DNA of 64,000 nucleotides, from positions 1-64,000 of the IMG/VR virus record IMGVR_UViG_3300025168_000054. One strand, given 5' to 3'. The notes under the pieces were generated by a model, which was not told the origin of the DNA, did not search any database, and saw only the letters and a list, made by a program, of their open reading frames with translations. This document shows positions 3,100-41,141 of this stretch, in pieces. The first letter of the stretch is position 1, and the number at the start of each line of letters is the position of its first letter. This DNA comes from a virus. Both the position numbers and the translations under genes were made by a program.

Positions 3100-3111
3100 C
3101 GGGGCGCAAGG

Positions 3112-3768: not shown

Positions 3769-3770
3769 GA

Positions 3771-4785: not shown

Positions 4786-4788
4786 GGG

Positions 4789-22496: not shown

Positions 22497-23216
22497 ATGG
22501 CAGCTCTGGTCATCATGGGCGTCGGCGCGGCGGTTGCTGCGGGCGGTCAGCTTGCGTCAGGTATTTCTGCCGGCAACGCCGCGAAGAAGCAGGCTCAGGC
22601 GCAGAAGCGCGCTGCAGGCCGCTACGCCAAGGCGTTGCGGTCGCAGGCTTCGAAGATGCAGGGCGGTATGTCTGCTGCGCAGAAGCGGACGCTCAAGACC
22701 GACGCGGCGCTCGACCGAGCCGCCCTTGGTCAGCAGGCTCGTGACGAAGCGAAGCGCGGTGGTCAGAGCCCGTCCGTAGCTCTCGAGGCGGAGCTGGACG
22801 CATCGCTGCAGGCGTCAATGGCTGAGCAGCAGAAGATGATTGACCAGATGAGCAACCAGGAAGCTCAGGCGAAGGCTGCGCAGCGCCAGTCTTTGAGGGG
22901 TCAGGCCCTTCAGACCGAGATGCAGGCGCAGGCTATCGACCCCAATGCCATAAAGCAGGCGACGATGGCTCCGATGTACGGCCAGATCGCAGGCACCGTT
23001 GGCGGTTCCGCGGTGAGTCTGGCGTCTCCGACGGCTGCAACGCAGGTTTCAGGAATAGCCGGGCAGCAGCTCGCGAATCGGAACCAGGACTACTTGGCCG
23101 CGATTCAGGCGGCCACGGACTTTGACGACCTTGATCCTTCGATGAAGCTTATGCAGACCCGAGTGCAAACACTCATAGACGGCCCCTCGGACCGCTACGA
23201 CACGCGAAGGCGATAA
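22497..23216 (+). CDS. Putative internal virion (ejection) protein, T7 gp14-like position
   Basis: 239 residues. A hydrophobic Gly/Ala-rich start (VIMGVGAAVAAGGQLASGIS) could insert in a membrane. A long helical region rich in Gln, Ala and Lys follows. T7 gp14 has the same design, size range (196) and place, just before the 700-plus-residue second and the very large third ejection protein. Such proteins leave the capsid with the DNA and build a channel across the envelope. CGGAGG ribosome site. Assignment from layout and composition. Confidence 0.6.
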   Translation: MAALVIMGVGAAVAAGGQLASGISAGNAAKKQAQAQKRAAGRYAKALRSQASKMQGGMSAAQKRTLKTDAALDRAALGQQARDEAKRGGQSPSVALEAELDASLQASMAEQQKMIDQMSNQEAQAKAAQRQSLRGQALQTEMQAQAIDPNAIKQATMAPMYGQIAGTVGGSAVSLASPTAATQVSGIAGQQLANRNQDYLAAIQAATDFDDLDPSMKLMQTRVQTLIDGPSDRYDTRRR

Positions 23217-23218
23217 TC

Positions 23219-26041
23219 ATGACGTACGCTGACCTGGTTGCTTACATCAGATCCGGTGTCGCTAACGGAAGTTGGTCGGCGAGCGCGGCGGCAGACGCGC
23301 GGGAGTTCTTGACGAAGAACCGCGAAGAAATCCGCCAGAAGCTGGGCGAGTACGAAGAAAAGAAGGCAGAGGCGAGGGCAAACGGTCTCGAAGACCACGC
23401 CAATCTTATCGAAAGTTCCATGGACACGTTCATGGGGCATCTCATTAGGCAGGCATCTACGGCCGACGCTACTTCAATCGACGTGTTCAAAGACAGTGTC
23501 AAAGCAGCCGACAAAGTCATTGACGACCTGACCTTCAAAACAATCGAGAAGGTGCCCAGCGCGGTTCAGGTTCTTCTGCGTCAGATCGAGGGTAGCGAGA
23601 AGGGCGATATTCACAATCTCTTGGCTGAATCTCGTTTTGCGAACGCAGACATGTTTGAGCCGACCAGCGCCGGCAATCTTTCGGGGGCGTCAGGAGGACA
23701 ATACTTGGTGGCCAAGGCACTTCTGGGCAAGGCCGAGCAGGGTAAGCTAGTCGATACGTTCCAGTCTCCGGGCCTACCGGAAGCGGCCTACAAGAACTAC
23801 CAGACAAAGTTCGATGACGACGACCCGGAGTTTACTTCGTACTCATGGGCTCAAACCTACGTCGATGGCAACGAGGCGCTGCAGGACCAGATTGACGCCG
23901 CGGTCGAGTCGATGCTGGACCCTCTCGGCATTCCAGTGGAAGACGCTACGCAGCAGTCACTCCTAAGAGATGTGTTCGAGGGAACGGCAGTTCGCGGAGT
24001 GCAGCTCGAAGTGGCGAAACGCGACAAGGCAGCCTTTCAGGCACTTGTCGATAAGAAGGCATCAGGAGGCAAAGTCAACCAGTCTGACGTCGACGCGGCG
24101 ATCAGAGGCGCTCACAGCCTGTCACTGACGAAGCATGGGATTCTCGGCGATACGGCAGAGTCTCTGGTTCAGCGTGAGCTGTCGAAGGTGAAGGACCCCA
24201 CTGGCGGAATGACTGCGGATGAGGCCGTGGTTGCCCGTTTCGGTGAGTCCGTCATGGACACGCTCGATTACGATCGCATCGCGCTCCTCGACGGCGTGGA
24301 CTCCTCGGGTCGTCCGCTCGACAAGTACAGGAGCAAGAAGGACGTGCTCGACAGCACCCTCGGCAGGGCGTACCTGAAGCAGGTTGACCTCCGAAAGAAG
24401 CTGGCCGACAACTCCTCGTTCGCGGAGTACGCGCGGTCTCACGGGCTGAACGTCTTGCCTGGACAGATGCCGACGCCGGGACAGATGCGTCGATTTGGCC
24501 GCGACATCCGTAAAGGGACGCGGCGTCCGGTTCAGCCGTCTGGAGTGATGGCTGAACTCATCGTGGTCGATCCCGACCGCACGGTGACGCTCGGCGAGGG
24601 GGCGGAGGCCCGTCGTGTCTCGTTCACGGTGACTGGCGAAGACAATACCACTCGCTACCTCACCAAGGAAGAACTCGAGGAGAAAGGCAACGCGGCTCTC
24701 AGCGATGAGAAGACGTACCCGATTCGTGAGATTGACCTCGACAACCCGAACGCACGCGAACTTCTGTCCGCAGCAGTGCCTGGGCTGAAGCGAGATATGC
24801 AGATCATTGACAAGGGCTATCTGAGCAGCAACGACGCTATCGCAGACAGGTTCAAGGGCTCCAGCGTCTTGGTCGACGTCACTACCGGCAAGGTCGTCCT
24901 CATCGGACAGGACCGCAAGGTCATGGAGGTTGTCGATGGGGCTGGCGAGATTGGACAGCTGAAGACATTCGCCAGCAACCCAGAGTACGCGGCTATCGCC
25001 GCAGACAACGATCGGTCTCGTCGAGGAGAAGCCGGCAACGCGCTTAAGTCATTCGACGAGCGCTTTCAGAAAGGCCTTCGGGTCGACGACGTGGGCATCG
25101 CCATCCCTGAGGGCGTGACGATGACCGCGGAGGTCGCTCGTAAGAGGATTACGGGTGAGATGGGCAGGCGCAAGACTGGTCAGTCGCAGGCCGAGTTCAA
25201 CATTATTGGCCGGGACGAAGACGGGAACCCCACCTACTCGGTCATCAACGTACGCGACATTTTCGGTGAGCCTAAGGCGCTGCCGTCCGCGGACACCGCT
25301 CGGTCTTCTCGTAAGGATCGTCGAACACGCCGTAAGGATGGAGCCCCTGGCAAGCGGGGGCGTGCGGACTACCGCGAGGAGGCGCTTCCGCCTCTCCAGC
25401 GGGCGGTTGCAGCACCGGCTCCTGAGGCTGCTCCAGCGCCTGCTCCGGCTCCTGATGATGCTCCAGCACCAAAGGAAGATAAGGCTGCCCCCGCGCCTGC
25501 TCCGGCACCAGCGCCTGCTCCGGCACCCGCTCCGGCACCGGCGGCAGAGGTTGCCGCGCCTGCGGTTGAGGCCTTGGAGGCAGCCTCGGAAAGCGCGCCA
25601 ACGCCGTTCTCTCCGACGGTCGCTTTCGACGCGAGGCCGGCGCAAGACCTCGGAGAGTTTGCTGGCGTAACGGGTGACCCGAGCTTCCCCGTAGCCGACC
25701 GGCCGAGTTTCGAAGACTTGGCGGGTCCACCTTCATACGGCGCGGCGCTCACGGGGGCGATAATGGGGATGACTCCAGCCGATCGACAAGTAGTGAGATT
25801 TTCCCGCACTGGCAGAGGCAAGGCTCTGAGTCGCGCCATGAACCCGTATGACCCTAACGAGTTCAAGCAGGCGGTAGATCAGTCCAACTACAAACGAGCT
25901 TTTCAGGCTTATGGGGTAGACCCTGAATCGCTGCCCGAGCCCGAAGACGCAAACGTCGAGATGGCGCGCATTCTTTCGGGACAACTCGCCGAGGAAGAAG
26001 AGGAAGACGAGAAGCCCGCAGGGTCCTCTCCGGCTAGCTGA
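23219..26041 (+). CDS. Putative internal virion (ejection) protein, T7 gp15-like position
   Basis: 940 residues, two bases after the preceding gene. Residues 1-720 are mostly helical and charged. Residues about 732-776 are a Pro-Ala repeat (APAPAPAPAP), a flexible or extended linker. After it come a short ordered domain and a strongly acidic tail (EEEEEDEK). T7 gp15 (747 residues) holds the middle place of the ejectosome trio. This one is longer, mainly through the linker region. Gly-Lys-Thr-like strings (GKGTRRP) are not in an ATPase context. Role inferred from gene order. Confidence 0.55.
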   Translation: MTYADLVAYIRSGVANGSWSASAAADAREFLTKNREEIRQKLGEYEEKKAEARANGLEDHANLIESSMDTFMGHLIRQASTADATSIDVFKDSVKAADKVIDDLTFKTIEKVPSAVQVLLRQIEGSEKGDIHNLLAESRFANADMFEPTSAGNLSGASGGQYLVAKALLGKAEQGKLVDTFQSPGLPEAAYKNYQTKFDDDDPEFTSYSWAQTYVDGNEALQDQIDAAVESMLDPLGIPVEDATQQSLLRDVFEGTAVRGVQLEVAKRDKAAFQALVDKKASGGKVNQSDVDAAIRGAHSLSLTKHGILGDTAESLVQRELSKVKDPTGGMTADEAVVARFGESVMDTLDYDRIALLDGVDSSGRPLDKYRSKKDVLDSTLGRAYLKQVDLRKKLADNSSFAEYARSHGLNVLPGQMPTPGQMRRFGRDIRKGTRRPVQPSGVMAELIVVDPDRTVTLGEGAEARRVSFTVTGEDNTTRYLTKEELEEKGNAALSDEKTYPIREIDLDNPNARELLSAAVPGLKRDMQIIDKGYLSSNDAIADRFKGSSVLVDVTTGKVVLIGQDRKVMEVVDGAGEIGQLKTFASNPEYAAIAADNDRSRRGEAGNALKSFDERFQKGLRVDDVGIAIPEGVTMTAEVARKRITGEMGRRKTGQSQAEFNIIGRDEDGNPTYSVINVRDIFGEPKALPSADTARSSRKDRRTRRKDGAPGKRGRADYREEALPPLQRAVAAPAPEAAPAPAPAPDDAPAPKEDKAAPAPAPAPAPAPAPAPAPAAEVAAPAVEALEAASESAPTPFSPTVAFDARPAQDLGEFAGVTGDPSFPVADRPSFEDLAGPPSYGAALTGAIMGMTPADRQVVRFSRTGRGKALSRAMNPYDPNEFKQAVDQSNYKRAFQAYGVDPESLPEPEDANVEMARILSGQLAEEEEEDEKPAGSSPAS
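25412..25545 (+). repeat. In-frame Pro-Ala coding repeat
   Basis: Degenerate GCN-CCN hexamers (such as gctcctgctccagcg) encode a run of Ala-Pro dipeptides broken by DD and KEDK. It lies inside the 940-residue ejection protein. Synonymous variation shows it is kept as protein sequence and is not a recent DNA slippage tract. Confidence 0.75.
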
Positions 26042-26048
26042 GGCCTCG

Positions 26049-26080: not shown

Positions 26081-26081
26081 G

Positions 26082-29000
26082 ATGTCGTACCTGACCTCTC
26101 TTGAGAAGCGCGCGTCCTTCCCTCTGCGCCCTGCTGAGCAGAAAGAAGAGGTCAAAGTCGACGAGGTGGCCGCTCCGGCGGCTCCCGCGTTTACTTCAAC
26201 GGTCCCAGGTACGGGGATTCGCCCCATCAGCGATCTTCTCCCCTCCGAGGGCAAGACGCCTGAGTACTCCTTCGGCGATGTCCCAACGCCGAAGGAGAAC
26301 CCCTTTGACATCGCGTTCGGTTCTCGGGAGAAAGTCGCCGCGCTGTACTCTGAGATAGTCGATACAACCGCGAGAAAGCGCTACGAAGCGGGTCAGTTGG
26401 CGGAGAAGTACAACTTCGACGACCAGGAAGAGGAGGGGTTTTTCGTCGGCCTCGCCAAGGAAGCGGGGGAGACTCTCATGGGGCGGGAGATTCTGCCGCG
26501 GGAGCCTTCGGACGAAAAGGTGGTGCTCAAGCGCACAGACGTTGACTCCTACATGGTTGAGTCACCAGTCTCAGTCTCAGGACGGCCTTCGCCGGTAACG
26601 GGACTATCTCAGCTCGTGCTGGGTGCCTCTGCGATTGATCCCGAGTCTCGCCCAGCGCGAGAGCTCAAGAAGCAAGGTCGAACGGCGAAGAAGATTCCCA
26701 ACGCAGAAGATATTCGTGTCAACGTCACGAACGAGCGGCTTCGCGCAGCGTTTATCTCTCAGGCTAAAGACAAGGAGTCCGGGGCTCAGTCGTATAGCGC
26801 CTATGTGCAGCGCATCGCCGATAACCTCGCGAAGGAAGGCAAAGACGCCACTTTCCGAGACGCGCAGCTCTTTATCGCCGGGAACGTGATTGCACGCTTG
26901 CCCAAGCCTGCAGGGCAAGGTGACCCCGGCATCGTCGTCGCACAGCGTGATGCAGTAAACCTCGTGTCGCAGTACACCGACCCGAGCTTCACGAGAGGCT
27001 TAGCGCAGACGTTGCCGATGGCCCCGCTCCGGTTGGGTGTAGCTGGGTCGGAGAAGCTGGGCGACCGTATTGACCCCAGTCGAGTTTTCGACCCGTACGT
27101 GGAAGAAGACACAGAGATGAAGCGGTCTGACCCGCTGGGTGCTCGCGCACGCGGGCCTATGACCGCGAGCGAAGCAGAGCGTGCCCAGTTCCTTGAGCAG
27201 CGGATGTTCTTCCCGGTCGACTTTGAGTACGACGAAGACAAGTCGCTGAAGACATCGACGACTGCCGCGCAGACGATGAACGACCTCATCGTGGACGGTT
27301 CTTTGATTCTTGGTGGGGCCGAGGGCAACTTCGACGACATGTACGGGGAAAGGAGTGTCACCGAGGTCTACAGCTCGAAGGTGATCTCAGGCGAGAGCGA
27401 CCAGAACCGGCTTATCGCTCTGGCGGCAAAGGCGGGTATCCCCGTCGACAAGACCTACGCTGTCACCAAGGCAGAGAGCACCGGAAATCCCGCGTCGTTT
27501 GCGTTCAACCTGCACCTGGGGCAGCACAACCCCAAGGACCCCAGCAACCCGAGGAACCGAACCGCCGAGCAAGAGCAGCGGCTGCGCCAGCTGATGGCAT
27601 CTGAGGGACTCAAGGTGAACTTCGAGTCTCGGGCGGCGCAGAACTACTACGGAAAGAACGCGCGCCGGGCGCTCGATCTCGCGGCAGCAATCAACCCGGT
27701 AGCGGCTGTTCAGGGCGGCGCCTTCGGCGAGTTCCAGGTCACGGGCAAGTACGGTGACGCGCTTGGCTACGTCAAGGAGACGTTCCCCGAGGTCGAGACT
27801 GACGAGCAGGCCGCGGGCGTCTTTCTCAACATGTTCAAGCAGAGCCCCGGTGTCGTCGGCGATGACATGTTCGTTCGGTGGTTTCAGCGGAACCCTGACG
27901 CGCAGAAAGCAGCAAACGACGGGGACATCTCAGGTCTCGCGAAGGAGTACTACGGCAGCCTTAGCGACCCCGAAGAGGTGGGCATCTCTGCTGCGGAAAA
28001 GGCGCGCCGAGAAAAGCAGGTCGAAACTCGCGACGGTTGGGTGGGCCGAGCGACCAACGCCAGCGAGGCGTACCTCGGCGGCATGATTGATTCCGCGCGC
28101 AAGGCCACGCGGCCGGAGGCACAGTCTGCGGAAACTTCTACGGATGATCCCCCCACGTCGCTGTCTCAGCAAGGACTGCTCGAGAACGAGAGCGTGTTTA
28201 CTTCTGAAGAGTCTCGGGAAGACATCTCTCAGGTCGAGGAGGCGCTACAGCTGCGCGCAGTCGAAGTCGAGACAGGCGTTTCGACTGTGATGACCATGTT
28301 TGGCGACATGGCTCAAGCGCCAACTCCAGGGTCCTCCGCGTTTATCGCTGCGGTTGCCCCGATTAAAGACGCGAAGGAAAACGACGCACAGCTCTATACG
28401 GTCGTAAAGGACAACAGAGACGCTCCGATGGGCACCGGCTATCGGAACGTGGCGAACTTCCTGTTTGAGCGTAAGGTCAACACGACGCTCGGGGAACGCT
28501 CTCTTTCGGACCTGTCTGCAGAGGAAACAAAGAGGCTGAAGGCCGAGGCGCGACAGGAAGCCTTTGCCGTGGTCACTTCCGCGCAGACAGAGAACTTGTG
28601 GCGTACTTCGTTCTACACGTCGTTCGACTATCTCTTGGGCGAAGAGGCCGACAGCGTGTTTGCTGCGATGGCACCTCGAATCGAGGTCATGGGCCGCACC
28701 AAGGACGGCTTCGTGTTTCGCCAAGAAGGTGATGTCCTGGCTGCCGCTGCGGCGCTCGACGCGCCGGCCGTACTGGGACAGTCGTTCAACATCGGAGTTA
28801 TCGGGAACTACCTATTCCCTGCGATTGAAGCTGCGTACACGGAGTACGAGCAGGGTAATCGCGGCGCGGCGTCCCTGGCGTTTGCTGTCACGGGGGAGAC
28901 TGTGGCAGCTGTCGCGGGGTCGTTTGGGGCGTACATCCCATACAGCAATGACATTGGCGTCGAGTTCCTGAACGAAGTGCATCGCGCGGGCGTTCAGGGT

Positions 29001-32000
29001 GTGGCTGAGCGGCAGAACTTTGTTGAGGTGGGCCTGAGCTCAGGAGCGGACGTCTTTGGTTTTGCCGCGGAGTCACTGCTTGAAACTGAGATGGGGCGCG
29101 AGACGCTTGACATGCTCATCGCATCGGGGTCTCTCCCGATTCCTTATGAGCTGACCTCGCCTGGCCGCAGGCACCTCGCCGTAGTCGACATGGCTCGAGC
29201 CACAGGGACTGCCGTGGGCATGCTGGGGGGCCTTGTTGCCGCTGTTGGCGTGCCGGATGCGACCGACTTCTTGCTTATCCCTAAAGTCATGAAGACAGGT
29301 CGACGTGCCTATCGTTTGATCAAGGACATTGACTTGTCGGTTGATGGGCTCGAGGCGCTCACAGAGACGAAGACATTCTCTCGGGCTGTGGGGTCGCGCT
29401 CAGAGATGTTCCTGCACGGAGAAGCTCGACGCACCACACTGGCCCAACTGGCAGCGACGCTTGAGCAGACGTCGGCAAAGGACCTGCAGGGTGCTTCGAG
29501 CGACGAAATCGCGACTCTTCTTCAGTTGGTCGATGATATTCTCGACACTTCCCGTAAGCAGGATGCGACAGACGGGGTCTTCCGTAACGATCTGACAGCC
29601 AGCGTGAAGATCGAGGTGGACCTGGAAGCAGAGAGTGCGCTGAGACTTCGAGCAGAAACTCAGACGCCCGCAGGGGAAGCCGCTCGGTACGCGTTGGACA
29701 AGGACCTCTCGAAGGACGTTCACGCCACTATCGTTGAACTCATCAAAGAGGCGTCGGCGTCAAAGGACCCTCGGCGAGTCGAGTTGGCCGAGGCACTGGG
29801 CGAGCGGCTGAAGGCTTCGCAGCTGCGCGAAGCCGTGAGCCTCTCGCCAGGCCAGACAGACGCGTTTTTGTCGGCCGCAGAAGAGGTGGTTGGTCCAAAG
29901 AAAGTCTTCGGATTCACTGAGCGTATCGAGATTCTCCGTGACGCACTCCTCCTCATCGACCCTGCCTCCGATGGTATGGCGATTCGGAAGAAAGTGTTCA
30001 GTCGCCGGGTCACTGAAGATCGCCTTAGTCGCGTGGCCAACACGGACACTGCCGACCTGCCGGGCTTTGTCGATCCGACTCTGAGCAAGGGCTTGGACCG
30101 CTACGGGCCTGTGACCGAAGAGGCTCTTAAAAAGTCTCTAAGCACTGTGAGATTGGCTGACGCCAAGAAGGGTGAGATCCTCCAGGCTCGCACAAAGCTG
30201 CAGGGTTGGCACGATCGGTTCAAGGCCGCGGTAGCCGACAACAGCATTCTTGACCCTCAGGTTCGGAGCGTGTTGCTCGACGAGTTCAAGGCAGAGAAGC
30301 TCGGAGATTCAAACTACCGGGTCTTCAGCAACTCCGATCGAAGCCGACAGAGTAGCTACTACCGAGGCGTCATAAAGGGCATCGAGGGTGTCGCAGGAGA
30401 TGCGACCAACGCGGCGTTTGGTCAGAACATCCTGGCTCGGGGTCTTCAAGGCGTACTCGCTGCCGCTGATTCGCGCGGGGCCGCGTACAAGAGGTTCGCA
30501 GTCGCACTGGTCGACAAGAGGAAGCTCGAAGCGCTGGATTCCAGCATGGACGCCGAGAAGTTCCTTGCAGGCGGAGAGACCGCTCTGCGCATGCGGAGGT
30601 TCCGCTACGCGCTCCAGTCAGCCACGAAGGAGGGAGTGATGCAGATCATGCTCTCCAATCCTGTGATGAGTCGGCTGATTCCAGAAGGCATTCGCGCGCA
30701 GTACGCTGTGTCCGCTTCGGCGAGGATGGCGAAGCGTCAGGAGATGCTGCGGCAGGGCAAGTCTCCGCTGGACCTCACCAACTTGCTGAAGCGAGAGGCT
30801 CTGACGAAGCTTTCACAGCGTCTGGCAGTGGCAACGACCAGCGGCGATCAGGCAATGGCCGCAAAGCTGACTGCCGACATTGACGAAGTCAAGTCTCCGC
30901 AGTTCTTTGCCAGGGTTTCCCAGTGGATGGACGATTCCATCACAGAGGTGAAGACCGCAGCCGCTGAAGGTCGAGAGCCGAATCTTCCCGGCATCGAGCT
31001 TCCTGTTGGGATCGACCCCGCCATCGTCAACCGTATGGACATGGATCCTAAGCCGCTGAGCGCTACCCGTAAGTTCTTCAGGGAGAGCTACTCGCCGGCG
31101 TTTGGTTTCGGTGCGGTGGAAGAAGTCCCCGCGGGTCCCTTGACCGCAGAGTTGCGCACACGGCGTGCGCGACTTTCTACCTCGGAAAAGCTCGCCAACG
31201 AGGTCGTTCTTGACCACATGCTTCGCTACATGGCAGGCGTCGATCGAACCGACACCCGCGTCATCGCAGAGCGCAAGGTCACCGACTTCCTCGAGAAGCG
31301 TCTGACGGTTCGGTCAATCGGGTCGTATGACTTCGAGTCTCGTCGAGTTGAGCTGCGTACGCAGCTTGATGACTTGTCTGAGCAGATTGCCCAGAGACGC
31401 TTCGGCCAGTCGGTCAACGACCTGGAACCACGAGCGCGCGTCCAGGTTCGCAGCGATGCGTTCAACGTCATCATTCCGTTGATGACTGACTGGGAAGCAT
31501 CTTTGATCTTGGCACGCTCGTCAGAAGAGCTGAAAGAGATCCTCGCGAACGCACGCCTCATCGGTCCGCGGCTGCCTGGCGAGGAAGCCGGAGACGTCAT
31601 TCTCTCGACCTTGTTTCAGGACCCGGAGTTTATGGCGCGCCTGCGTAAGACAGGCGGGGCTACGCGACGTCGCCGCAAGGCAAAGCCTGCCGCAAAGGCG
31701 GCACCAGAAACGGCGGAGACTACAGAAGCTCCCGCTCTGCCCGCTGCATCCGCCGTAGACACGGCCGCAGCAACCGACCGCCCGGCTCGGCGCACCCGTC
31801 GGGCGGCAGTCACTATCGACAAAGAGGCAGCTCCGACTGGTCAGGTGTATGTGGCTAAGGTCGACGAGCTCGACGAGGGCGTACCTGACTCAGTGCTTGA
31901 GGCAGAGTCTGCCTTTGGTAACTCCGCGCTGCTGTGGAGCAGTCTCAGTGATCGTATGGGCGGCCTCCTCGAACAGAGTGAGGTACTGCGTGGTTCGCCT

Positions 32001-35000
32001 ACCTTGGGGTCGGCTTCGTCTACCGTTGTCGGTCAGCGCGCAGTGGGCAGCATCGGCCGGCAAGTCCTCGGAGTCATGGTCGAAGGTCTGCAGGGCCTTA
32101 AAGCAGAGGATTCCTCTGACTTCTTCGTCAAGTTCGCGGAGGCGCTTAAGTCGACAAGTCGCTTCGACGAGCCCATTCGTTTGGCCGTGACTAACAACCC
32201 GGAGGTTGTGGTCACGTTGGCAGAGGTGTTCAGCAAGCAGGCTCGAGGCAACCTGACTCAGGCAGACGTCACTGCCGTCGAAAACCTGCTGCGTAAGGCG
32301 GGTGTACTTTCAAGCGAGTTGAGTGCGCAGGACCTGCTGAAGGTCAACGGCGAGGAAACCAAGGCGGCACTGGCGGCAGATACGGTTGCTCGGGCCGATG
32401 AGTTCGTACCGTCTCCCGCAGCTACGAAGGCTACTCTGCCTGAGGAAGTTGCGCGGAGCTCTGCGCTCGAGGAGGCCGTCGAAAACATCGCCAAGGCTAC
32501 GGGCTCCGATGAAATCCGCAGGCTGCTCACGGACTTGAAGGACTCTGACCACGGGCGAAACATCGAGGCCGTGCTTCGGGCTATCGACATGATCGGCCCC
32601 GAACGACTCAAGAACATCTCACTGGTCATTGAGCCGGCAGAGGGCCAGTCCGCGGCGAAGCGGATGTTCGACTTCACCAACGAGACCATCCGCGTCTACG
32701 ACGACGCTCTCGAGTCCGGCGAGTTTACGCCTGAGGTGCTGTCGCAGTTGTGGCAGTCGCTGACTCGGTATGTGCCTGACGCTGAGGTCAAGGCCCTCAA
32801 GGACGAGTGGCTTAAGGAGCGCGACGCGTTCATGCGGGCGAACCCTGATCGCTTCGGTCGGGACATGACTCCGATTGGAGACTTTGTTCCAGACGAAATG
32901 ACGCTCCTGTCCTTTGACCAATGGATTGCTAACGCTGCCCGCAACGTAGTTCTCGCGGAAATAAACCCAAAAATCACAAATAACCCGGTCCTTCAGGCTT
33001 TCGTCGACACGGTGTCTGCGCTTGTCGAGCAGTTCAAGCTGCGCGGCAAGAAGGTCGGGGCCATGGCCCTGGAGTTCTTGAACAAGGGCAGCCAGAAGTA
33101 TCAGGAGATGGTGCGCGATGGCTCCGTGGACACGGCGATTCGCCGAGCGACGCCTGAGCAGTACTTCGGTGAGCAGCTCAAGTGGCAGGCGTTCCTCGAC
33201 AACCCTGACGCGCGCAAGCCCTCAGTCAAGGCCGTAGGCGAGATGGAAGCCATCGACGAGTTGATCGATGGTGCTGCTGAGACCACGGTTAAAACTGTTG
33301 AGACATTCCTTGCGGAACGCTTCGGTAAGCGCGCGATTCTTACCGAAGAAGGTTTTTCCCTTCTCAAGGCAGAGGCTGTCAAGGACGATGTCTCTCGCGT
33401 ACTGTTTTCGGGGGTCGCCGCGCGGCTGCAAGAGCTGGGTGTGTCGGCCCTCGATGCAGAGGGCAAGCCGCTGTCTCCCTTCCAGATGACGGAGCTGTTC
33501 AAGGAAGTGCGCCGCGGTTTGGTCGAAGAAGCCGCGGACGCGGCTAAGCAGGAAGGTGGCGAAAACTTCAAGAAGGTACAGCGGCTGGGCGAGTTGGAAA
33601 GCGAACTCGCCAAGTTGCGCGCCGCGGGTGAGACCGAAACTCCTCGCGTGATCAAGTTGAGCGAAGACATCAACGAGCTTGACGCTGACCTTCGGGCGAC
33701 GGCGGAAAGTGCCGGCGAATCGACGTCTCCGTTCCAGCGTATGCTTGAAACGAAAACTCAGTCAGAGCGAAAGGTGCTCGCACAGAGCATCCTCGACAGT
33801 GTCGTCGCTGTGATCGCAAAGATTGATGAGTCTCCTGGGCCGATGACTCTGGATGAACTGCTCGAGGGAGTTGAAGATCAGAGTGTCATCAACGAGGTCC
33901 GGCACTTGCTTGGCGTCGCCGGCAAGCGCGGTGACCTCTTGTCGCAAGTTCGAGATGACGGGCGCCTGCTCCTGGCAAGAGCCCCTGGCCGCGTAGTGCT
34001 TCCCGAAGAAGACCTTTACGTCCAGACGCTTCGGGCGGAGGCTGAAGGTCGCGCGTACGAAGCCGACGAACTCGCCGATGAGGTTGACAAGATCCTCGGT
34101 CTGAGGCCTGACATTGCTCGGGACGAAGCTCGTAAGCTGGCTTCGGGCTACCTCGAAGAGCTTCGACAGGCCGCAGCCACTGCTCGCCGTCAACGGCTTG
34201 AGCGTGGGGCTATCGACGCAAGTATGCTGGACGAGCTTTTGCTGAACGAGGCATCGTCTCTGGCAGCTGACGCCGCACGCACGGGTCTGCGGGCCGACCT
34301 CGATGTACAGATTGATGAGATCGTCGCCGCCGTCCCCGACGCAGGGACGGTGCCGTTCAACACGACGAGAAAGGTCTCTGACGACTTCGACATCGTTTCT
34401 TTCGAGTCAAACCCTGGGGTCGAGCAGGCCGCGTTTGCCTTGTCCAACGCGAGCAGCCTCAGAAAGAGCCCGCCGAAGAGCATCAAGAAGGGCGCGAACG
34501 AATCGGCCGAAGCGTTTGCTGCGCGGAGTAAGCAGCTCATGGCGACAAACCGCTCTGCGGCTATCACGCTGGTCATCGACATGTTCGAGGGTCTGCGCCC
34601 TTACATCGCGCTTCCGGCCGAGATTGTAGTCAAGCGCAACAAGGTCGATAAGACCATCTATCTAAAGGACGTCCTGCCTGGACAGGACTTTAGCAAGCTG
34701 CGGGTTTTGGATACCAAGGCGTTCTTGAAGAAGTACACCGAGCTGATCGAGGAAGCTCTCAAGGAGCAGGGGCTACTCGAAGAGGTCAAGTCACTCTCGT
34801 CGGCGATGCAGAAGAGCGAGTTCGACGACGCCGTCGCGCGTGCTCGTAAGCAGAAGTCCGTAGAGGCCGAGCCTGTGGTGGAGCCTGCGGCAGTTGAGCC
34901 TGCAGCCGCTCGGACGGCTACTGACGACCGGTTTGTGTTGAAAGCCCGTGAGATGTTTGACGACGGCAAGACTCCTCGTGCCGCGGAGAGTGTGCGAGAG

Positions 35001-38000
35001 GCCATCGAAAAGAACGCGGGATCTGGCGCCGCGAAGGCGTTCGGCGATGAGTACAAGTCCCTCAGAGACGCCGCTGTTCAAGCCCGTGTTCGTCAGGACG
35101 CCGCTGAGGCCACCACCGGTGCCGCTGAGCCTAAGGCGACTCCTTCTCCCACGGTTGCTTCGCCAACGACTACGCGGTCTTTGCCCAAGGCAGGAGAAAA
35201 GCACACGCCGCCGACGCCAGCAGAGGCTCGCGCAGAGACTGCTGCCGCGCCGAGGAACGAACGCGGTGTCTCACTGGGCAACCCGGCACCTTCCAGAGAT
35301 GACCTACCTAAGATCGAGACGGTCGTTAAGCCCTACCGCGAGATGGGCAAGCAGTCTCCTGAGACGTTGGCTGAGCACGCGAGTGCTCGTGGAATCGACC
35401 TCGCCGATCACTCGACGCCTGAAAGTCTCGCGAACGCTGTGGGTCAGGCAGACGTAAAGTCTGCGCGCGTGGCGCAGGCTGTGTCGGGTGACGCGCCTCC
35501 GGCCGCGGCCAAGGCGGCACCGCCTGAGGCCTTTGCCGCAGCGGCAGACATCACTGCCGCAGAGGCGAAGACCGTCAATGCGATAGACGCCATGGTCGAT
35601 GCGCTCGCACCGGAGAACGCAGACAAGGTCGCCAAGCGTGTTGCACGTCTCCAGAAGCTTATCGACAAGTCGGAAGAGATCGAGGCGCTTTCAGCCAAGC
35701 AGGTGGTCGACTACGTCTTTGACGACCTGGATGTTGGCGCGCGAGAGACTCTGGCGAACTCCGGGGCAATCGACGACATCGTCAAAGACCTGACGAGGAT
35801 TTTCAACCAAAACGTCGCGGACGTAAAGCGAGAGTCTCGGCGGCTTCGTCGAACCTTTGAGAGTCTGCAGAAGCTCGCCAAGAAGCTGGAAGGCAAGGAT
35901 CGTGAGCGGGCTCTCCGTGCTGCTGCCCGAGCGGAACGGCAAGCAACATCCATGGAGGAAGCTCTTCGCGAGCTCTTGAGGTCTGACCGGCTGGACGAGT
36001 TCGCCGATCTTCTCGAGACTGAGCGAGCAGCCGGCAAGGTTCGGCGGAAGGCAGAAAAGCAGGCCCGAGAAGAGGCCATCATCTCGTTCATCAGCCGTGG
36101 GGCACCTCCCCGCCCTCCAGGTACGCCTAAGACCCCGCGCAATCGCGGAGTAGATAAGGTCCCTAAGAACGTCAAGGGGATGGTGTATTTCCTCGACGAC
36201 TCACAGGCGATTATCTACGCGTTCAAGTCGGCAGATGCTGAGACAGGTCTCCACGAGATGGCGCACGTTTTGCGGCGCAACTTGCGGGACGCAGACCTCC
36301 AGGTTTCTTTGGGCTGGGTCAACTCTCAGCTGGAAGCGCGGGGCATGGAGAAGGTGCGCCTGGCTTACGGTGTTGACAGCCGGACGGGCAACTTCATTGG
36401 TCGAGGTGACTCTGTTCACTACGCCGAAGAGCTTTTTGCTGAAGGCTTTGAGCAGTACATGCGCGAGGGCGTGGCCCCGACGAAGATGCTCGAGAACGTC
36501 TTCAAGATCATGAAGGAGCTTCTGCACAACATCTTCGTCTCGGCCAAGCGACAGCCGGAGAAGATTGAAATCAGTCCTGAGATGTACGCGGTGTTTGACC
36601 GCGTCTTCGGGGCAAAGCAGACGTTCACGATGGACGACATGCCCGACGCGATGATGTTCCTCAACGTGCAGGACGACCTCGGTCGATCTGTCGTGGGCCT
36701 GGGTGGCCGGCTTGAGACTGACCTCATCCTTGAAGACACTGTGACAGGTCGTTTCCGCCAGCTTGAGATGAGCCTCGACGACTATCGCCGTCGCATGGGC
36801 AAAAGCGGCGAGGCGGGTATCGTCGGCAAGGTCGCGTCGAAGCTGCCTACTCCTAAGGCGGCTGTGGGTGGTCTCGGCTTGGGTTCACGAACCAGCCAGT
36901 ACCTTGACCCTGTCAGTAGCCGCGTGCTGTCTGCCGAAGACCGCATGCTTCTCAACAGGTTCCGCCGCGGTGAGATCGAAAGGTCTGATCTGCCCAACCG
37001 ACTTCTGCCTGAGATCGAGAAGGGCTTGCGTGTGACTGGTGAGGCGGCGGTGCTCGTTGGCTCGCTCACACTGAAGGCTGCGCGCCTTATGTACGGCGAC
37101 GATGCTTCTCGCGTCATCCGCACGTACAACCCGGCTCAAAGAGTCCACATGAAGGCGGGAGCGAGGGAGGGTGAGGAGTTCTCTAACGGCGCGTCAGTCT
37201 TGATCAACGACATCTCTCGACGCATGGGTGCCTCTGCCGAACGCGCGCTGAACGACATCATCAGCTACTTCTCAGGTCAGTCGGCGCAGCTGTTGACTGG
37301 GTCGGAGAGAGGTAAGAGACTCAATGCTACGAATGTAGACATCTTCGAGCACGTCTCGAGAATGTTCCACGACATGCTCTGGAGGATGGACCCAGAAGCG
37401 CGGGTTGCCTTGATACAAGCGGCAGAAAATCGTTTGAGCAAGCCGCTGCACGCGACAACTCAGGATGACATCCTTCCGCTGTCAGGTTTGTGGAACGGCT
37501 ACGTCGTCCGCAACCGAGCAACCCCAGAGAAGTCGGCGCTGTCATTTTCCGGGGAAGGAATCTTGCTGAGCAATGACTACATCGACGTAGTTAAGCCTGG
37601 ACTTGCGAAGGGTGGCTCTATCGAGATCGATAGTTTTTTGCAGGACACTCTCGGAGACCTCTATGTCGCAGTGACCGGGCAGCCCCTCAGTAAAGGTACG
37701 AAGGTTCCTCCCACAGCCTTGGATATGGCTGCGCTGCTCGTGCTTCACTCCGGCGGCTCGATGCTGAAGGCTTCCGATGGAAGCGCGGTTCACCTTGACC
37801 AGGTCTTGAAGGCCGCCGGCGTGAGCCGCGGAGAGGCTTTGATCAAGGGCGTTACCGCCGAAGTCAACGGCTCGACCGTCAAGGTCCCCGGACTCATGAC
37901 GACGTCAGTCGCCGTTGAGCGTCGCTTGCCAGTGCTCATGTCTCTGGGGCATGCCGGGTTTGCGTCAGGCATGCTCGACGACGCGGCGAAGTGGGGCTTT

Positions 38001-40667
38001 GGTCTTACCGGACGAGAGTACCGAGCGTTCATGCGCTACGTCACAGGTCAGCAAGGGGCCATGTCTTTGAGCGATATCGAAATGGCGAAGAGCGTCATTA
38101 GCCGCTTCGGTATTTCGGCAGAGTTTGTCACCAACTCACGTCGTCATGGGCAGTATTACCTCCCCAAGCAGGCTCGAGACGCGCTGCGAGACCAGATGTC
38201 GCAGGCAGCACGGCAGTTTGATTACGGCGAGAAGGGTGGGAAGAGCTCCGTCGCAAGAGACGCCTTCGGCATCTACAACTCGTTGCTGTACTCAACGATG
38301 GTGTTTGGGGCAGTTGTAGTCAAGCCGTTCTACCGGCTGGCGTCGTTGATCGACTTGGGTCTCGGTGCTCTGGGTATGGGGGGCGCTCGCGCAGCCACAG
38401 CTGCGGTCACACGAGCAGGCGTAAGTACCTTGCTGGCGTTTGCTTACGAAGGGTTCCCGCTACTGTCTGCGGAACGCGCCGCAGAAGCTGTGGGGCTTGC
38501 CGGAGACGCCGGCCGCGCGGTTGTTCGACGTGTTCGAGGTGACGTAGATTCCGCGAAAACTGTGTTGGATTTCAAGCAGCAGATTCGCGATGTAGCAGCC
38601 GAGTCTGGAGACAACCTTGCTCGTATGATTACCGAGACTTCAGCCAGCGCGAAGTACCGCCCGGAAGTGCGCCCCATCATGGAAGCGCGAGCAGACATGA
38701 TCTTCGTCATCAATGGTCGTCCTTACCGGGCTTCTGACCTTCGGCGCATCTTCGTTCGGTCTGGCCTGTACAACAACATGTTCAAGTCCATCAAGGCCAC
38801 GTACATGGCGGAGGGCGGTTCGCTCACTGAAGTCATGGACCGGGTGAAGCGCAGCGTGAAGGAGAAGTACGGAGATGACGCGGCTAACGTGAAGATGCTC
38901 GACAGCTTCCTCGAAGAAACGACAGACACGAAAAATCCGTTCAACATCATGGGCGGTATCCGCGGAGCCGGTGACATGGCTCTTCGTCACGGCCTTGAGT
39001 CTGCCGACGCGTGGGCAGACCTTGAGCGCACAGGTCTGGCGGTCACATTCATGGAGTTGGGCCACTCACCGCAGACGGCGGCCCGTATGGTCGTTGAGGC
39101 GGTTTACGACTACCGAGGCTCTATGACCTCGGCTGATCGCAGCATGTTCAACAAGGTGACGCGACCGTTCTTTGCTTTCACCAAGAACGCGATTCACCAT
39201 CTCACAAACATGATGAGCTCTCCTCTCGGGCGGTTTTACGCTCGTTCGATGGCGAAGCTGCCGTTCCTTTCAGCTGACGCTGCGACTGCGGTGCTGTACG
39301 AGTTCCTGGTCGGACCTTACGGAATCAACACCTCCGCGATGAACTCAAGCGAGGTCAACGCGTACTACGACATGAGAAACTTCCTCGAGTACGGTCTGGG
39401 CGAGCAGGTTGACCGAAATACTCTGCAGCAGTACCGAGAGATTCTGCCGGATGAGGCAAAGGACATTAGCGACCAAGAGTTGATGGACCACGACTTCGGC
39501 GGATGGACCATCCGCAACGGGTACAACGGCTACGACAACGTGCCGGAAGACGCTCGAGTGTCTGTGCGTGCTTTGATCGCCAGCAGGTCGAAGCTGTACG
39601 CAAAGGGCCGGTACCTGTACGTTGCGAAGGTTCTACAGGACGAAGAACTTCGGGAGGAGTTCGTCAAGCTTGGTGGAGCTATGGCGGTTCAAGATGAGCC
39701 CAGCCGTCGCGGGCAAGCTTCCTATATGTACAACCGCTATCCGACGATTCAGGTTCCTTTTCCGGTGCTGAACGCCAGCGCGCAAGAGGCGATGCGGCTT
39801 GGCCTCAGTGATTCCGTTTACTGGATGCTGCCGGATAACTTCGTCCACTCAGGCATCGCCGAAGCCAGCGCCATGATGGCTACAGCGTTGGTTGTTCTCG
39901 ATGAATCTTTGAATGCAATCCCAGGGGGAAAGCCATTCTTCCCCGACGTCGCGGCAACGCGTGCCCAGCGTGCGGCAGCGCCTTTGATAGACATACGCGG
40001 GTACGGCAGTCCGATTGCTGCCGACATCATCAAGGGCGGCGCCGCGTTGTTCGGTAAAGGCAACTTGTTCGTCGAAGTCGACCCGCTCATCGCACGCGTG
40101 CTGCAGGGGTCAATGATTCCTGTCGCTAACGCCGACGACATCGACGAAGATGACCTGGGTATCTTGCTTCAGCTCGCCCAGTCTGACCCGGAGCTTTACA
40201 ACCAGGCGATCAAAGTCTTCAGCCAGATGATGGGCGGCAGCGTGGGCCGAGAAATACAGTTCCCTGCCTTTGCAGACGAAGTTCGAGCTGCGCGCATGAT
40301 TGTCAAGGACGGTAGGCGAGAAGTCGTGTTTGCCAATCGCGGCGGTGTCTTTGACCGTGAGTTCCTCGAAAAGGGCGCTAAAGACTCAAGCGAGAAAGCC
40401 GTCCGAAAGAAGCCGTTTCTGGTTGGTAAGTCCGCGGTGCTGTTTAAGATCACGCCGCTGGGTCAGCTCAATCAGGCGCTCTTGCAGTACCGTAAGACTC
40501 CTCAGGAAGGTCAGCTCGAAGCACAGAAGGAGCTTCGGTCGGAGATTATCCGCTTCATCACAGCCCAGGGCCGACAGGTCGGTATGCGTACTTCCGGGGC
40601 TGACGAAGAGCGCGTGACAGAAACAATCGAGCGGGCTGCGAACAAGGTCTTCGAAGAGTACAAGTGA
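26082..40667 (+). CDS. Giant 4861-residue ejection/polyvalent protein with muramidase-like and zincin domains
   Basis: One uninterrupted frame of 14.6 kb. About residues 440-625 resemble N-acetylmuramidases of the DUF3380 type: VTKAEST with Glu465 as likely catalytic residue, then INPVAAVQGGAFGEFQVTG near 538-556 and a closing AKEYYG. A zinc metallopeptidase motif, HEMAH (H3391, E3392, H3395), is followed by EELFAE (E3450 or E3454 as third ligand), in the LHE-x2-H context seen in large polyvalent proteins. Linkers rich in Ala, Pro, Lys and Arg lie near 1850-1910 and 2920-3060. Hydrophobic segments lie near 1042-1066 and 4072-4128. PFFAFTKNAI near 4362 is typical of phage internal virion proteins. 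The place equals T7 gp16 (1318 residues, wall-cutting ejection protein). It likely enters the cell with the DNA, cuts peptidoglycan and helps form the channel. Confidence 0.75.
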   Translation: MSYLTSLEKRASFPLRPAEQKEEVKVDEVAAPAAPAFTSTVPGTGIRPISDLLPSEGKTPEYSFGDVPTPKENPFDIAFGSREKVAALYSEIVDTTARKRYEAGQLAEKYNFDDQEEEGFFVGLAKEAGETLMGREILPREPSDEKVVLKRTDVDSYMVESPVSVSGRPSPVTGLSQLVLGASAIDPESRPARELKKQGRTAKKIPNAEDIRVNVTNERLRAAFISQAKDKESGAQSYSAYVQRIADNLAKEGKDATFRDAQLFIAGNVIARLPKPAGQGDPGIVVAQRDAVNLVSQYTDPSFTRGLAQTLPMAPLRLGVAGSEKLGDRIDPSRVFDPYVEEDTEMKRSDPLGARARGPMTASEAERAQFLEQRMFFPVDFEYDEDKSLKTSTTAAQTMNDLIVDGSLILGGAEGNFDDMYGERSVTEVYSSKVISGESDQNRLIALAAKAGIPVDKTYAVTKAESTGNPASFAFNLHLGQHNPKDPSNPRNRTAEQEQRLRQLMASEGLKVNFESRAAQNYYGKNARRALDLAAAINPVAAVQGGAFGEFQVTGKYGDALGYVKETFPEVETDEQAAGVFLNMFKQSPGVVGDDMFVRWFQRNPDAQKAANDGDISGLAKEYYGSLSDPEEVGISAAEKARREKQVETRDGWVGRATNASEAYLGGMIDSARKATRPEAQSAETSTDDPPTSLSQQGLLENESVFTSEESREDISQVEEALQLRAVEVETGVSTVMTMFGDMAQAPTPGSSAFIAAVAPIKDAKENDAQLYTVVKDNRDAPMGTGYRNVANFLFERKVNTTLGERSLSDLSAEETKRLKAEARQEAFAVVTSAQTENLWRTSFYTSFDYLLGEEADSVFAAMAPRIEVMGRTKDGFVFRQEGDVLAAAAALDAPAVLGQSFNIGVIGNYLFPAIEAAYTEYEQGNRGAASLAFAVTGETVAAVAGSFGAYIPYSNDIGVEFLNEVHRAGVQGVAERQNFVEVGLSSGADVFGFAAESLLETEMGRETLDMLIASGSLPIPYELTSPGRRHLAVVDMARATGTAVGMLGGLVAAVGVPDATDFLLIPKVMKTGRRAYRLIKDIDLSVDGLEALTETKTFSRAVGSRSEMFLHGEARRTTLAQLAATLEQTSAKDLQGASSDEIATLLQLVDDILDTSRKQDATDGVFRNDLTASVKIEVDLEAESALRLRAETQTPAGEAARYALDKDLSKDVHATIVELIKEASASKDPRRVELAEALGERLKASQLREAVSLSPGQTDAFLSAAEEVVGPKKVFGFTERIEILRDALLLIDPASDGMAIRKKVFSRRVTEDRLSRVANTDTADLPGFVDPTLSKGLDRYGPVTEEALKKSLSTVRLADAKKGEILQARTKLQGWHDRFKAAVADNSILDPQVRSVLLDEFKAEKLGDSNYRVFSNSDRSRQSSYYRGVIKGIEGVAGDATNAAFGQNILARGLQGVLAAADSRGAAYKRFAVALVDKRKLEALDSSMDAEKFLAGGETALRMRRFRYALQSATKEGVMQIMLSNPVMSRLIPEGIRAQYAVSASARMAKRQEMLRQGKSPLDLTNLLKREALTKLSQRLAVATTSGDQAMAAKLTADIDEVKSPQFFARVSQWMDDSITEVKTAAAEGREPNLPGIELPVGIDPAIVNRMDMDPKPLSATRKFFRESYSPAFGFGAVEEVPAGPLTAELRTRRARLSTSEKLANEVVLDHMLRYMAGVDRTDTRVIAERKVTDFLEKRLTVRSIGSYDFESRRVELRTQLDDLSEQIAQRRFGQSVNDLEPRARVQVRSDAFNVIIPLMTDWEASLILARSSEELKEILANARLIGPRLPGEEAGDVILSTLFQDPEFMARLRKTGGATRRRRKAKPAAKAAPETAETTEAPALPAASAVDTAAATDRPARRTRRAAVTIDKEAAPTGQVYVAKVDELDEGVPDSVLEAESAFGNSALLWSSLSDRMGGLLEQSEVLRGSPTLGSASSTVVGQRAVGSIGRQVLGVMVEGLQGLKAEDSSDFFVKFAEALKSTSRFDEPIRLAVTNNPEVVVTLAEVFSKQARGNLTQADVTAVENLLRKAGVLSSELSAQDLLKVNGEETKAALAADTVARADEFVPSPAATKATLPEEVARSSALEEAVENIAKATGSDEIRRLLTDLKDSDHGRNIEAVLRAIDMIGPERLKNISLVIEPAEGQSAAKRMFDFTNETIRVYDDALESGEFTPEVLSQLWQSLTRYVPDAEVKALKDEWLKERDAFMRANPDRFGRDMTPIGDFVPDEMTLLSFDQWIANAARNVVLAEINPKITNNPVLQAFVDTVSALVEQFKLRGKKVGAMALEFLNKGSQKYQEMVRDGSVDTAIRRATPEQYFGEQLKWQAFLDNPDARKPSVKAVGEMEAIDELIDGAAETTVKTVETFLAERFGKRAILTEEGFSLLKAEAVKDDVSRVLFSGVAARLQELGVSALDAEGKPLSPFQMTELFKEVRRGLVEEAADAAKQEGGENFKKVQRLGELESELAKLRAAGETETPRVIKLSEDINELDADLRATAESAGESTSPFQRMLETKTQSERKVLAQSILDSVVAVIAKIDESPGPMTLDELLEGVEDQSVINEVRHLLGVAGKRGDLLSQVRDDGRLLLARAPGRVVLPEEDLYVQTLRAEAEGRAYEADELADEVDKILGLRPDIARDEARKLASGYLEELRQAAATARRQRLERGAIDASMLDELLLNEASSLAADAARTGLRADLDVQIDEIVAAVPDAGTVPFNTTRKVSDDFDIVSFESNPGVEQAAFALSNASSLRKSPPKSIKKGANESAEAFAARSKQLMATNRSAAITLVIDMFEGLRPYIALPAEIVVKRNKVDKTIYLKDVLPGQDFSKLRVLDTKAFLKKYTELIEEALKEQGLLEEVKSLSSAMQKSEFDDAVARARKQKSVEAEPVVEPAAVEPAAARTATDDRFVLKAREMFDDGKTPRAAESVREAIEKNAGSGAAKAFGDEYKSLRDAAVQARVRQDAAEATTGAAEPKATPSPTVASPTTTRSLPKAGEKHTPPTPAEARAETAAAPRNERGVSLGNPAPSRDDLPKIETVVKPYREMGKQSPETLAEHASARGIDLADHSTPESLANAVGQADVKSARVAQAVSGDAPPAAAKAAPPEAFAAAADITAAEAKTVNAIDAMVDALAPENADKVAKRVARLQKLIDKSEEIEALSAKQVVDYVFDDLDVGARETLANSGAIDDIVKDLTRIFNQNVADVKRESRRLRRTFESLQKLAKKLEGKDRERALRAAARAERQATSMEEALRELLRSDRLDEFADLLETERAAGKVRRKAEKQAREEAIISFISRGAPPRPPGTPKTPRNRGVDKVPKNVKGMVYFLDDSQAIIYAFKSADAETGLHEMAHVLRRNLRDADLQVSLGWVNSQLEARGMEKVRLAYGVDSRTGNFIGRGDSVHYAEELFAEGFEQYMREGVAPTKMLENVFKIMKELLHNIFVSAKRQPEKIEISPEMYAVFDRVFGAKQTFTMDDMPDAMMFLNVQDDLGRSVVGLGGRLETDLILEDTVTGRFRQLEMSLDDYRRRMGKSGEAGIVGKVASKLPTPKAAVGGLGLGSRTSQYLDPVSSRVLSAEDRMLLNRFRRGEIERSDLPNRLLPEIEKGLRVTGEAAVLVGSLTLKAARLMYGDDASRVIRTYNPAQRVHMKAGAREGEEFSNGASVLINDISRRMGASAERALNDIISYFSGQSAQLLTGSERGKRLNATNVDIFEHVSRMFHDMLWRMDPEARVALIQAAENRLSKPLHATTQDDILPLSGLWNGYVVRNRATPEKSALSFSGEGILLSNDYIDVVKPGLAKGGSIEIDSFLQDTLGDLYVAVTGQPLSKGTKVPPTALDMAALLVLHSGGSMLKASDGSAVHLDQVLKAAGVSRGEALIKGVTAEVNGSTVKVPGLMTTSVAVERRLPVLMSLGHAGFASGMLDDAAKWGFGLTGREYRAFMRYVTGQQGAMSLSDIEMAKSVISRFGISAEFVTNSRRHGQYYLPKQARDALRDQMSQAARQFDYGEKGGKSSVARDAFGIYNSLLYSTMVFGAVVVKPFYRLASLIDLGLGALGMGGARAATAAVTRAGVSTLLAFAYEGFPLLSAERAAEAVGLAGDAGRAVVRRVRGDVDSAKTVLDFKQQIRDVAAESGDNLARMITETSASAKYRPEVRPIMEARADMIFVINGRPYRASDLRRIFVRSGLYNNMFKSIKATYMAEGGSLTEVMDRVKRSVKEKYGDDAANVKMLDSFLEETTDTKNPFNIMGGIRGAGDMALRHGLESADAWADLERTGLAVTFMELGHSPQTAARMVVEAVYDYRGSMTSADRSMFNKVTRPFFAFTKNAIHHLTNMMSSPLGRFYARSMAKLPFLSADAATAVLYEFLVGPYGINTSAMNSSEVNAYYDMRNFLEYGLGEQVDRNTLQQYREILPDEAKDISDQELMDHDFGGWTIRNGYNGYDNVPEDARVSVRALIASRSKLYAKGRYLYVAKVLQDEELREEFVKLGGAMAVQDEPSRRGQASYMYNRYPTIQVPFPVLNASAQEAMRLGLSDSVYWMLPDNFVHSGIAEASAMMATALVVLDESLNAIPGGKPFFPDVAATRAQRAAAPLIDIRGYGSPIAADIIKGGAALFGKGNLFVEVDPLIARVLQGSMIPVANADDIDEDDLGILLQLAQSDPELYNQAIKVFSQMMGGSVGREIQFPAFADEVRAARMIVKDGRREVVFANRGGVFDREFLEKGAKDSSEKAVRKKPFLVGKSAVLFKITPLGQLNQALLQYRKTPQEGQLEAQKELRSEIIRFITAQGRQVGMRTSGADEERVTETIERAANKVFEEYK

Positions 40668-40691: not shown

Positions 40692-41141
40692 ATGTCTGAC
40701 TACAACTACGGCGGATGGGGCCACTACGGCTTTGCCGCGAACGACAACGGCACGATCACTGCCGCATACACCGCGCTGTCGCTCGGACAGGTCGCAGGCA
40801 TTTCGCGGTCTCAAGGTGTTCCTGACGACGCGCATCTGTACGACATCGTGTTCGAACTCACCAGCATGGTGACAGGTGCCGGGGCTCCAGGGAACATCTC
40901 GTTCTACCTGGCGCGTGACGCCGCAGGGACAAAGCCGCTTACGCCGCTTCTTACCGCACCTATCGTCACGGCGCTCGGGGCAAACGTAGCGACTGGCGGC
41001 GCTCACGCGAAGATCTCAGTCGACTTCCACAGCACCAGCGGTGTCGGCCCTACGGCCTACAACACGCTGCAGCTCATTGTTCGTCACGACGGCTCAGCTG
41101 ACAACGTCACCGCCGACATCTTCCTCAGCTGGCGCTCCTGA
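40692..41141 (+). CDS. Putative beta-rich virion protein, last gene of the rightward block
   Basis: 149 residues starting MSDYNYGGWGHYGFA, then beta-rich sequence ending DIFLSWRS. No family recognised. It resembles the 141-residue protein at 2647-3072 in overall layout and final strand. It has its own extended -10 and Shine-Dalgarno. It ends one base from the stop of the converging helicase gene, with no visible terminator between them. Probably a particle protein, judging from block and composition. Confidence 0.55.
   Translation: MSDYNYGGWGHYGFAANDNGTITAAYTALSLGQVAGISRSQGVPDDAHLYDIVFELTSMVTGAGAPGNISFYLARDAAGTKPLTPLLTAPIVTALGANVATGGAHAKISVDFHSTSGVGPTAYNTLQLIVRHDGSADNVTADIFLSWRS

Follow-up and report, generated by a model that had tools for sequence, protein, structure and literature searches.

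What kind of protein a virus encodes in one uninterrupted frame of 4,861 codons, and whether so long a gene is real, are the questions raised by the locus described here. The window analysed comprises 64,000 nucleotides, the first part of a virus record of 79,958 bases (IMGVR_UViG_3300025168_000054). The frame runs on the plus strand from the ATG at 26082 to 40667, is directly preceded by an AGGTGAG-like sequence, and predicts a product of 530 kDa, hereafter the giant. Within its span the other two forward frames contain 137 and 210 stop codons, and the three reverse frames between 51 and 226. GC content at the three codon positions stays at about 0.65/0.45/0.69, and since this pattern is steady along the whole length, the frame is taken to be coding throughout. 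The start codon is supported by two homologues with alike N-termini (MSYL..L.KRA, MSYF..LRKRA and MPYL..LSKRA in the three proteins). A chance open frame was rejected on the basis of the homologues and the coding pattern, and the single unbroken gene reported from the sequence alone is thereby confirmed.

Scanning viral contigs with the single sequence of the whole giant, or of its C-terminus, gave no match; the relatives of the virus came to light when the conserved genes for the portal, the primase and the 149-aa protein served as anchors. The portal-anchored scan retrieved a virus of 81.6 kb (81,570 bases), here called G001, with a giant of 5,099 aa, and a 47-kb contig 99.99% identical to it represents a second assembly of the same virus. 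The G001 giant is collinear with the window giant over window residues 1-1846, 2007-2389, 2397-2898, 3040-3306 and 3353-4846, with identities of 26-39%. When genome contigs were scanned, a third and more distant virus, L058, was added, on the 73,432-base contig JARGNS010000001.1. It is collinear with the window along its whole genome, with identities of 68% for the portal, 72% for the major head protein and 71% for the terminase, and carries a collinear giant of 3,886 aa. The contig is filed under a Planctomycetota MAG, which may be a binning error or a hint at the host. That the frame is a sequencing join or a fusion of separate genes, a reading which only its unusual length favours, has practically no probability left: two viruses assembled elsewhere have collinear homologues over the full length, which excludes an assembly fusion, and the codon-position GC is steady. 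The features of the locus are listed in Table 1.

Table 1. Features of the giant gene and its neighbours (positions in the window; residues of the giant).
Feature	Position	Strand	Basis or remark
239-aa Cys-free protein	22497..23216	+	first cassette gene, gp14 / N4 gp52 position
940-aa Cys-free protein	23219..26041	+	second cassette gene, gp15 / N4 gp51 position
Giant ejection protein, putative, 4,861 aa, 0 Cys	26082..40667	+	open frame, homologues, Cys count
Conserved N-terminal region, residues 1-340	26082..27101	+	27% to L058 giant over 1-337; within the 33% G001 block 1-1846
Peptidoglycan-hydrolase module, PF11860-like, residues 440-690	27399..28151	+	phrog_2860, PF11860
N-core, residues 714-1846	28221..31619	+	conserved in three giants, 30-37% identity; ends in shared LFQ
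Linker, residues 1847-2006, Ala/Pro/Arg-rich	31620..32099	+	place of ART-PolyVal in G001 giant
Variable central region, Ala/Pro-rich stretches (e.g. residues 3000-3170)	32100..35621	+	25-32% to G001, in pieces
Zincin-type metallopeptidase, about residues 3360-3556	36159..36749	+	HEMAH 3391-3395, downstream EELFAEGFEQY
C-core, residues 3557-4861, about 1,300 aa	36750..40664	+	relatives detected in the giants of this family only
149-aa Cys-free gene, last in rightward operon	40692..41141	+	97% identical to G001

The claim that the giant holds at least two enzyme-like domains stands, as a PF11860-like muramidase and a zincin were recognised. The muramidase-like module (about residues 444-625) matched phrog_2860 with an E-value of 3.9e-6 over profile positions 9-168 of 189. 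Against PF11860 it scored 20.2 bits (E 7.8e-4), below the curated cut-off of 22.3, and the assignment is therefore a remote one in spite of the significant match to the wider phrog_2860. Glu465 is conserved in the motif YAVTKAESTG, and the signatures ESTG and GGAFGEFQV are conserved or nearly so in G001. In the same slot, the L058 giant carries an unrelated T4-type lysozyme (PF00959, E 4.6e-16, residues 431-556), which acts on the same substrate.

The zincin combines HExxH with a downstream Glu, as in the polyvalent-protein class. It matched phrog_9880 with an E-value of 3e-14, gave tblastn matches to the giants of BPP-1-like phages, and was aligned by hhalign with the large proteins of the BPP-1 group at probabilities of 98.3-98.9 (E 2e-14 to 2.7e-17). 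Together, zincin and C-core are 41% identical to G001 and 38% to L058. A third kind of enzyme occurs in the relatives. After its N-core, the G001 giant carries an ART-PolyVal ADP-ribosyltransferase (PF18760, E 3.9e-14), and a weak relative of it (PF18760, E 0.013) lies at the corresponding place in L058; no ART-PolyVal domain was found in the linker of the window giant. The family thus joins domains of disparate activity, namely muramidase-like and zincin domains in the window giant and ADP-ribosyltransferase and T4-type lysozyme domains in its homologues.

Pfam, PHROGs and the PDB sequences yielded no match for the remainder of the giant, the middle third having been compared with PDB by single-sequence search only, and residues 1-2666 had no match in phages. 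The N-core has no known relative and no PDB match. The C-core likewise lacks a PDB match, and hhalign showed no kinship to the C-terminal regions of the BPP-1 group. Conservation is lowest in the central region, which is about 750 residues shorter in L058, where it is largely absent. AlphaFold models built from a two-sequence alignment were unusable (pLDDT 44.7 for the muramidase region and 33.9 for zincin plus C-core). Hydrophobic segments, also noted in the sequence-only reading, are present in a weak form: the best 19-residue Kyte-Doolittle window reaches 1.58 (residues 1048-1066), and at a threshold of 1.6 no strong transmembrane helix was found.

The position of the gene is informative. 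The giant is the last and largest of a block of three genes (239, 940 and 4,861 aa) downstream of the tail genes, in the position of gp14-15-16 in T7 and gp52-51-50 in N4, and the order of starts at 22497, 23219 and 26082 agrees with T7, N4, BPP-1 and PfDIW6. The genes for portal, terminase and major head protein lie upstream, linking the giant to virion structural genes as in polyvalent proteins, and the portal is of podovirus type (matches to phrog_332, SU10_portal and P22_portal). On the 3' side there is one 149-aa gene, followed by replication genes on the opposite strand. The 239-aa protein matched no family; homologues occupy the same place in G001 (237 aa, 0 Cys) and in the L058 contig. 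The 940-aa protein, also without a significant family match, has 863-aa homologues with 0 Cys, 26-29% identical, directly upstream of both other giants, and is the probable tunnel partner of the giant. With shallow alignments, hhalign detected no kinship of the neighbours of the giant to tail or ejection proteins of T7, P22, N4, phiEco32 and BPP-1. A PADLOC search gave no match, and a defence-system or cellular origin of the giant is without support.

Three other genes of the window deserve mention. Near the portal/terminase block, 3112-3768 on the minus strand encodes a Cys-rich 218-aa protein matching the ferredoxin family phrog_3704 (E 8e-30), likely an auxiliary metabolic gene. Between portal and terminase, an endolysin-like gene (9340-10086, minus strand; phrog_2649, E 4e-16) is poorly conserved in G001, which suggests replacement of the lysis gene. 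The minus-strand gene at 47222-50167 encodes a 981-aa family A DNA polymerase, in which a stretch resembling PF03167 (uracil-DNA glycosylase superfamily; E 1.2e-4, below cut-off) precedes the exonuclease and polymerase domains, so that a glycosylase-polymerase fusion is possible.

The block is completely devoid of cysteine, with none in the 6,040 residues encoded by the three genes (239 + 940 + 4,861). The other listed genes of the window average 10.2 Cys per 1,000 residues, and about 49 would therefore be expected in the giant. The chance of finding none is about 3e-22 at the Cys rate of the genome and 4e-12 at 5.4 per 1,000. In the other two forward frames of the gene, TGY codons occur 189 and 190 times. 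Cys is absent from all three giants (4,861, 5,099 and 3,886 aa) and from the partner encoded immediately before each of them; the head and tail genes further upstream of the cassette do contain it. The comparison set consisted of T7, P22, N4, phiEco32, crAss001, BPP-1-like phages and P23-45. No Cys was found in gp15 and gp16 of T7, gp7, gp20 and gp16 of P22, gp50, gp51 and gp52 of N4 or gp22-26 of phiEco32, and T7 gp14 has one. Across unrelated phages, proteins that are ejected or threaded through the tail have little or no Cys, a feature that the adjoining head and tail proteins mostly do not share. All three cassette genes share this trait of the ejection-protein class, a trait that is common and not specific to it. 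For the N4-like virion RNA polymerase (vRNAP), the absence of Cys has been explained by passage through the tail and the oxidising periplasm (PMC3715699, PMC3915230). The lack of Cys argues that the giant chain is threaded out of the virion; it does not by itself prove that the protein belongs to a podovirus ejectosome, because the tape measure protein of Thermus phage P23-45 also has 0 Cys.

That protein brings in another explanation, in which the virus would be long-tailed and the giant its tail tape measure protein, with enzyme domains fused in. The P23-45 tape measure protein has 5,002 residues (PMC10770324) and an annotated metallopeptidase domain besides being Cys-free, and a phage protein of the size of the giant is thus not unique. 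It differs in that it determines tail length in a long-tailed phage, has an N-terminal RNA polymerase (PMC10770324) and lies in another gene neighbourhood: its gene precedes a series of late genes, whereas the window giant ends the structural operon. No distal tail or baseplate genes follow the giant, and family searches of the window found no tail tube, terminator or baseplate families. Since the portal matches those of podoviruses and giants with this zincin occur in BPP-1-like podoviruses, a tape measure function is improbable.

Slightly less probable still is a degenerate or very divergent N4-type vRNAP, whose polymerase would lie unrecognised in mid-chain, before the zincin and a large C-terminal domain. 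The giant and the N4 vRNAP do share the slot, the absence of Cys, two Cys-free genes upstream, and an HExxH motif about 1,270-1,470 residues before the end. However, the earlier statement that no RNA polymerase motifs are present has held: the N4 polymerase and solved polymerases gave no match by phmmer, by two- and three-sequence profiles or by hhalign of the N-core, and the motif DxDGD was not found in the giant. The middle in which a polymerase would have to lie is the part that varies most and that is missing over some 750 residues in L058. Comparison of the C-core with the C2 domain of N4 by hhalign (E 0.43) detected no kinship. Nor was kinship to T7 gp16 found against solved chains, by phmmer or by profiles, residues 1847-3352 being covered by the single-sequence search. 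A direct fusion of a BPP-1-type lysozyme protein with a zincin giant was also considered and found no support, as hhalign gave no match of those proteins to the N-terminal part or to the three cassette genes.

Comparison with described systems places the giant more closely. The same mix of domains was reported by Iyer and others in injected polyvalent proteins (Iyer et al., 2017; PMC5512222). These proteins, including N4-vRNAP-like and BPP-1-type ones (PMC5512222), resemble the giant in their great length and multiple domains, linkage to virion genes, zincin hub, lysozyme-type domain and proposed injection with the DNA, and ART-PolyVal is found in its close relative. Unlike them, the cores of the window giant (about 1,130 and 1,300 residues) have no counterpart among the domains described in the searched libraries, and the family spans 3,900-5,100 residues against 1,902-3,500 in the zincin giants compared here. 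The phrog_9880 proteins of BPP-1 (Bbp10), PfDIW6, Jess A, SAC, vir555 and MZH0603 have a homologous zincin, occupy the same slot behind other internal virion genes and are Cys-free or nearly so; they measure 1,902-2,341 residues, and their C-terminal regions, though mutually related, show no detectable relationship to that of the window giant. In PfDIW6 and ctRVW222 a peptidoglycan hydrolase is annotated on the gene before the zincin giant, unlike the arrangement in the window.

T7 gp16 also follows gp14- and gp15-like genes, has an N-terminal peptidoglycan hydrolase and contains no Cys, but it has 1,318 residues, no zincin described and no detected sequence similarity. The vRNAP (gp50) of N4 and DEV is likewise a giant, comes last among the ejection proteins beside two Cys-free partners and has HExxH followed by a large C-terminal region, but it contains an RNA polymerase, is without a peptidoglycan hydrolase (PMC12633501) and shows no sequence similarity to the giant. 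As the sequence-only reading had held, the giant exceeds both T7 gp16 and the N4 vRNAP (3,500 residues).

That the giant is of virion type and occupies the gp16 slot is borne out by synteny, by the muramidase and zincin domains and by the lack of Cys, from which the location in the virion is inferred. Most probably, the giant is the largest part of the machine by which a podovirus ejects its DNA, and at the same time a polyvalent cargo protein, presumably carried in the particle. It is read as an ejection protein because of its slot, the podovirus portal, the absence of Cys, the exchange of wall-degrading enzymes between homologues, the BPP-1-type zincin and the ADP-ribosyltransferase in G001. 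On this reading it is a very large variant of the known polyvalent podovirus ejection class, like T7 gp16 and the N4 vRNAP in its working and without detected sequence kinship to either. The gene, its domains, slot swapping, Cys exclusion and synteny are the demonstrated part of the explanation.

A model for its action is given by T7 (PMC8954989), N4 (PMC12633501) and crAss001 (PMC10172136), in which the partner proteins form the outer-membrane and periplasmic tube and the largest protein follows, opens the peptidoglycan if a domain for this is present, and builds the inner end, large chains passing as separate or partly unfolded domains. By analogy, the head would contain a few copies of the giant together with the 239- and 940-aa partners. 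At infection, the partners would form the outer-membrane and periplasmic sections of the tube, and the giant would emerge from the head with its domains strung out and partly unfolded. Its muramidase would open the peptidoglycan, and the N- and C-cores may build the inner-membrane or cytoplasmic end, through which the DNA would follow. The zincin may cleave the giant itself, freeing domains before or after injection, or a host target, and the central region may serve as a cargo slot for effectors such as the ADP-ribosyltransferase of the relative. Passage of such a chain through a narrow portal had been called a puzzle; it becomes less of one in view of published precedents, namely the beads-on-a-string N4 vRNAP (PMC12633501) and the partly unfolded cargo of crAss001 (PMC10172136).

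A variant of this explanation, counted separately, is that of a maturation polyprotein, in which the zincin would cut the chain before or during packaging and the virion would hold several internal proteins. The zincin is internal to the giant and Ala/Pro-rich linkers separate the modules; autoprocessing has been proposed for polyvalent proteins, and DdrB of P1 is processed before packaging (PMC5512222). In addition, the N-core closes with [RT]LFQ in all three giants (31605-31619 in the window), and L-F-Q recurs after the ART domain, as LLFQG in G001 and ILFQA in L058. This motif is a possible cassette border or cleavage site, judged from the three sequences, and coincidence is also possible. 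On the other side, a domain of this kind is also present in the N4 vRNAP, which is nevertheless described as a virion protein of 3,500 residues (PMC12633501). Cleavage during maturation is thus rather unlikely, though a serious candidate beside ejection of the whole chain.

Compared with the remainder of the genome, the 940-aa gene and the giant stand out by a much larger divergence. Between the window and G001, identity is 90-97% for the major head protein, portal, terminase, primase and 149-aa gene, against about 26% for the 940-aa protein and 33-39% for the giant. At the DNA level, the two genomes cease to align at about 22950 and align again from 40665, short matches in the interval apart, and the 149-aa gene marks the downstream edge of the divergent block. 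Outside 23219-40667 the genome is mostly 60-97% identical to G001, the gene at 19421-21631 being intermediate (54%). The giant is nearly as far from G001 as from L058 (37% and 30% in the N-core), though the major head protein is 95% identical to the former and 72% to the latter. In a fourth virus, L040, the last 124 residues of the giant share 62% identity with G001 but 41% with the window. The adjoining 149-aa protein of L040 lies at about the same distance from both (69-70%), and between window and G001 this protein is 97% identical.

These identities suggest that an exchange of ejectosome alleles may explain the divergence best, with fast evolution under conflict as the alternative. A more far-reaching proposal, advanced here as a doubtful conjecture, is that the giant is an exchangeable ejectosome chassis of two cores, with a hydrolase slot and a central cargo slot swapped between phages. 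The 940-aa protein and the giant would move together as an allele matching the envelope or defences of the host, and the internal zincin would cut at the L-F-Q borders, releasing the cargo after injection.

The giants of 3,886, 4,861 and 5,099 aa form a natural series, with interchangeable wall-degrading enzymes, optional effector cargo and conserved cores unlike anything known, in which the threading of giant proteins through the portal and their cutting en route become testable by comparison. The size of a likely injected podovirus protein is pushed to 4,900-5,100 residues. The divergence of the 940-aa protein and the giant amid core proteins that are 90-97% identical suggests that ejection machines are exchanged or fast-evolving, like tail fibres. 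Finally, the absence of Cys could be a general marker and may assist the search for ejected proteins in phages that lack annotation.
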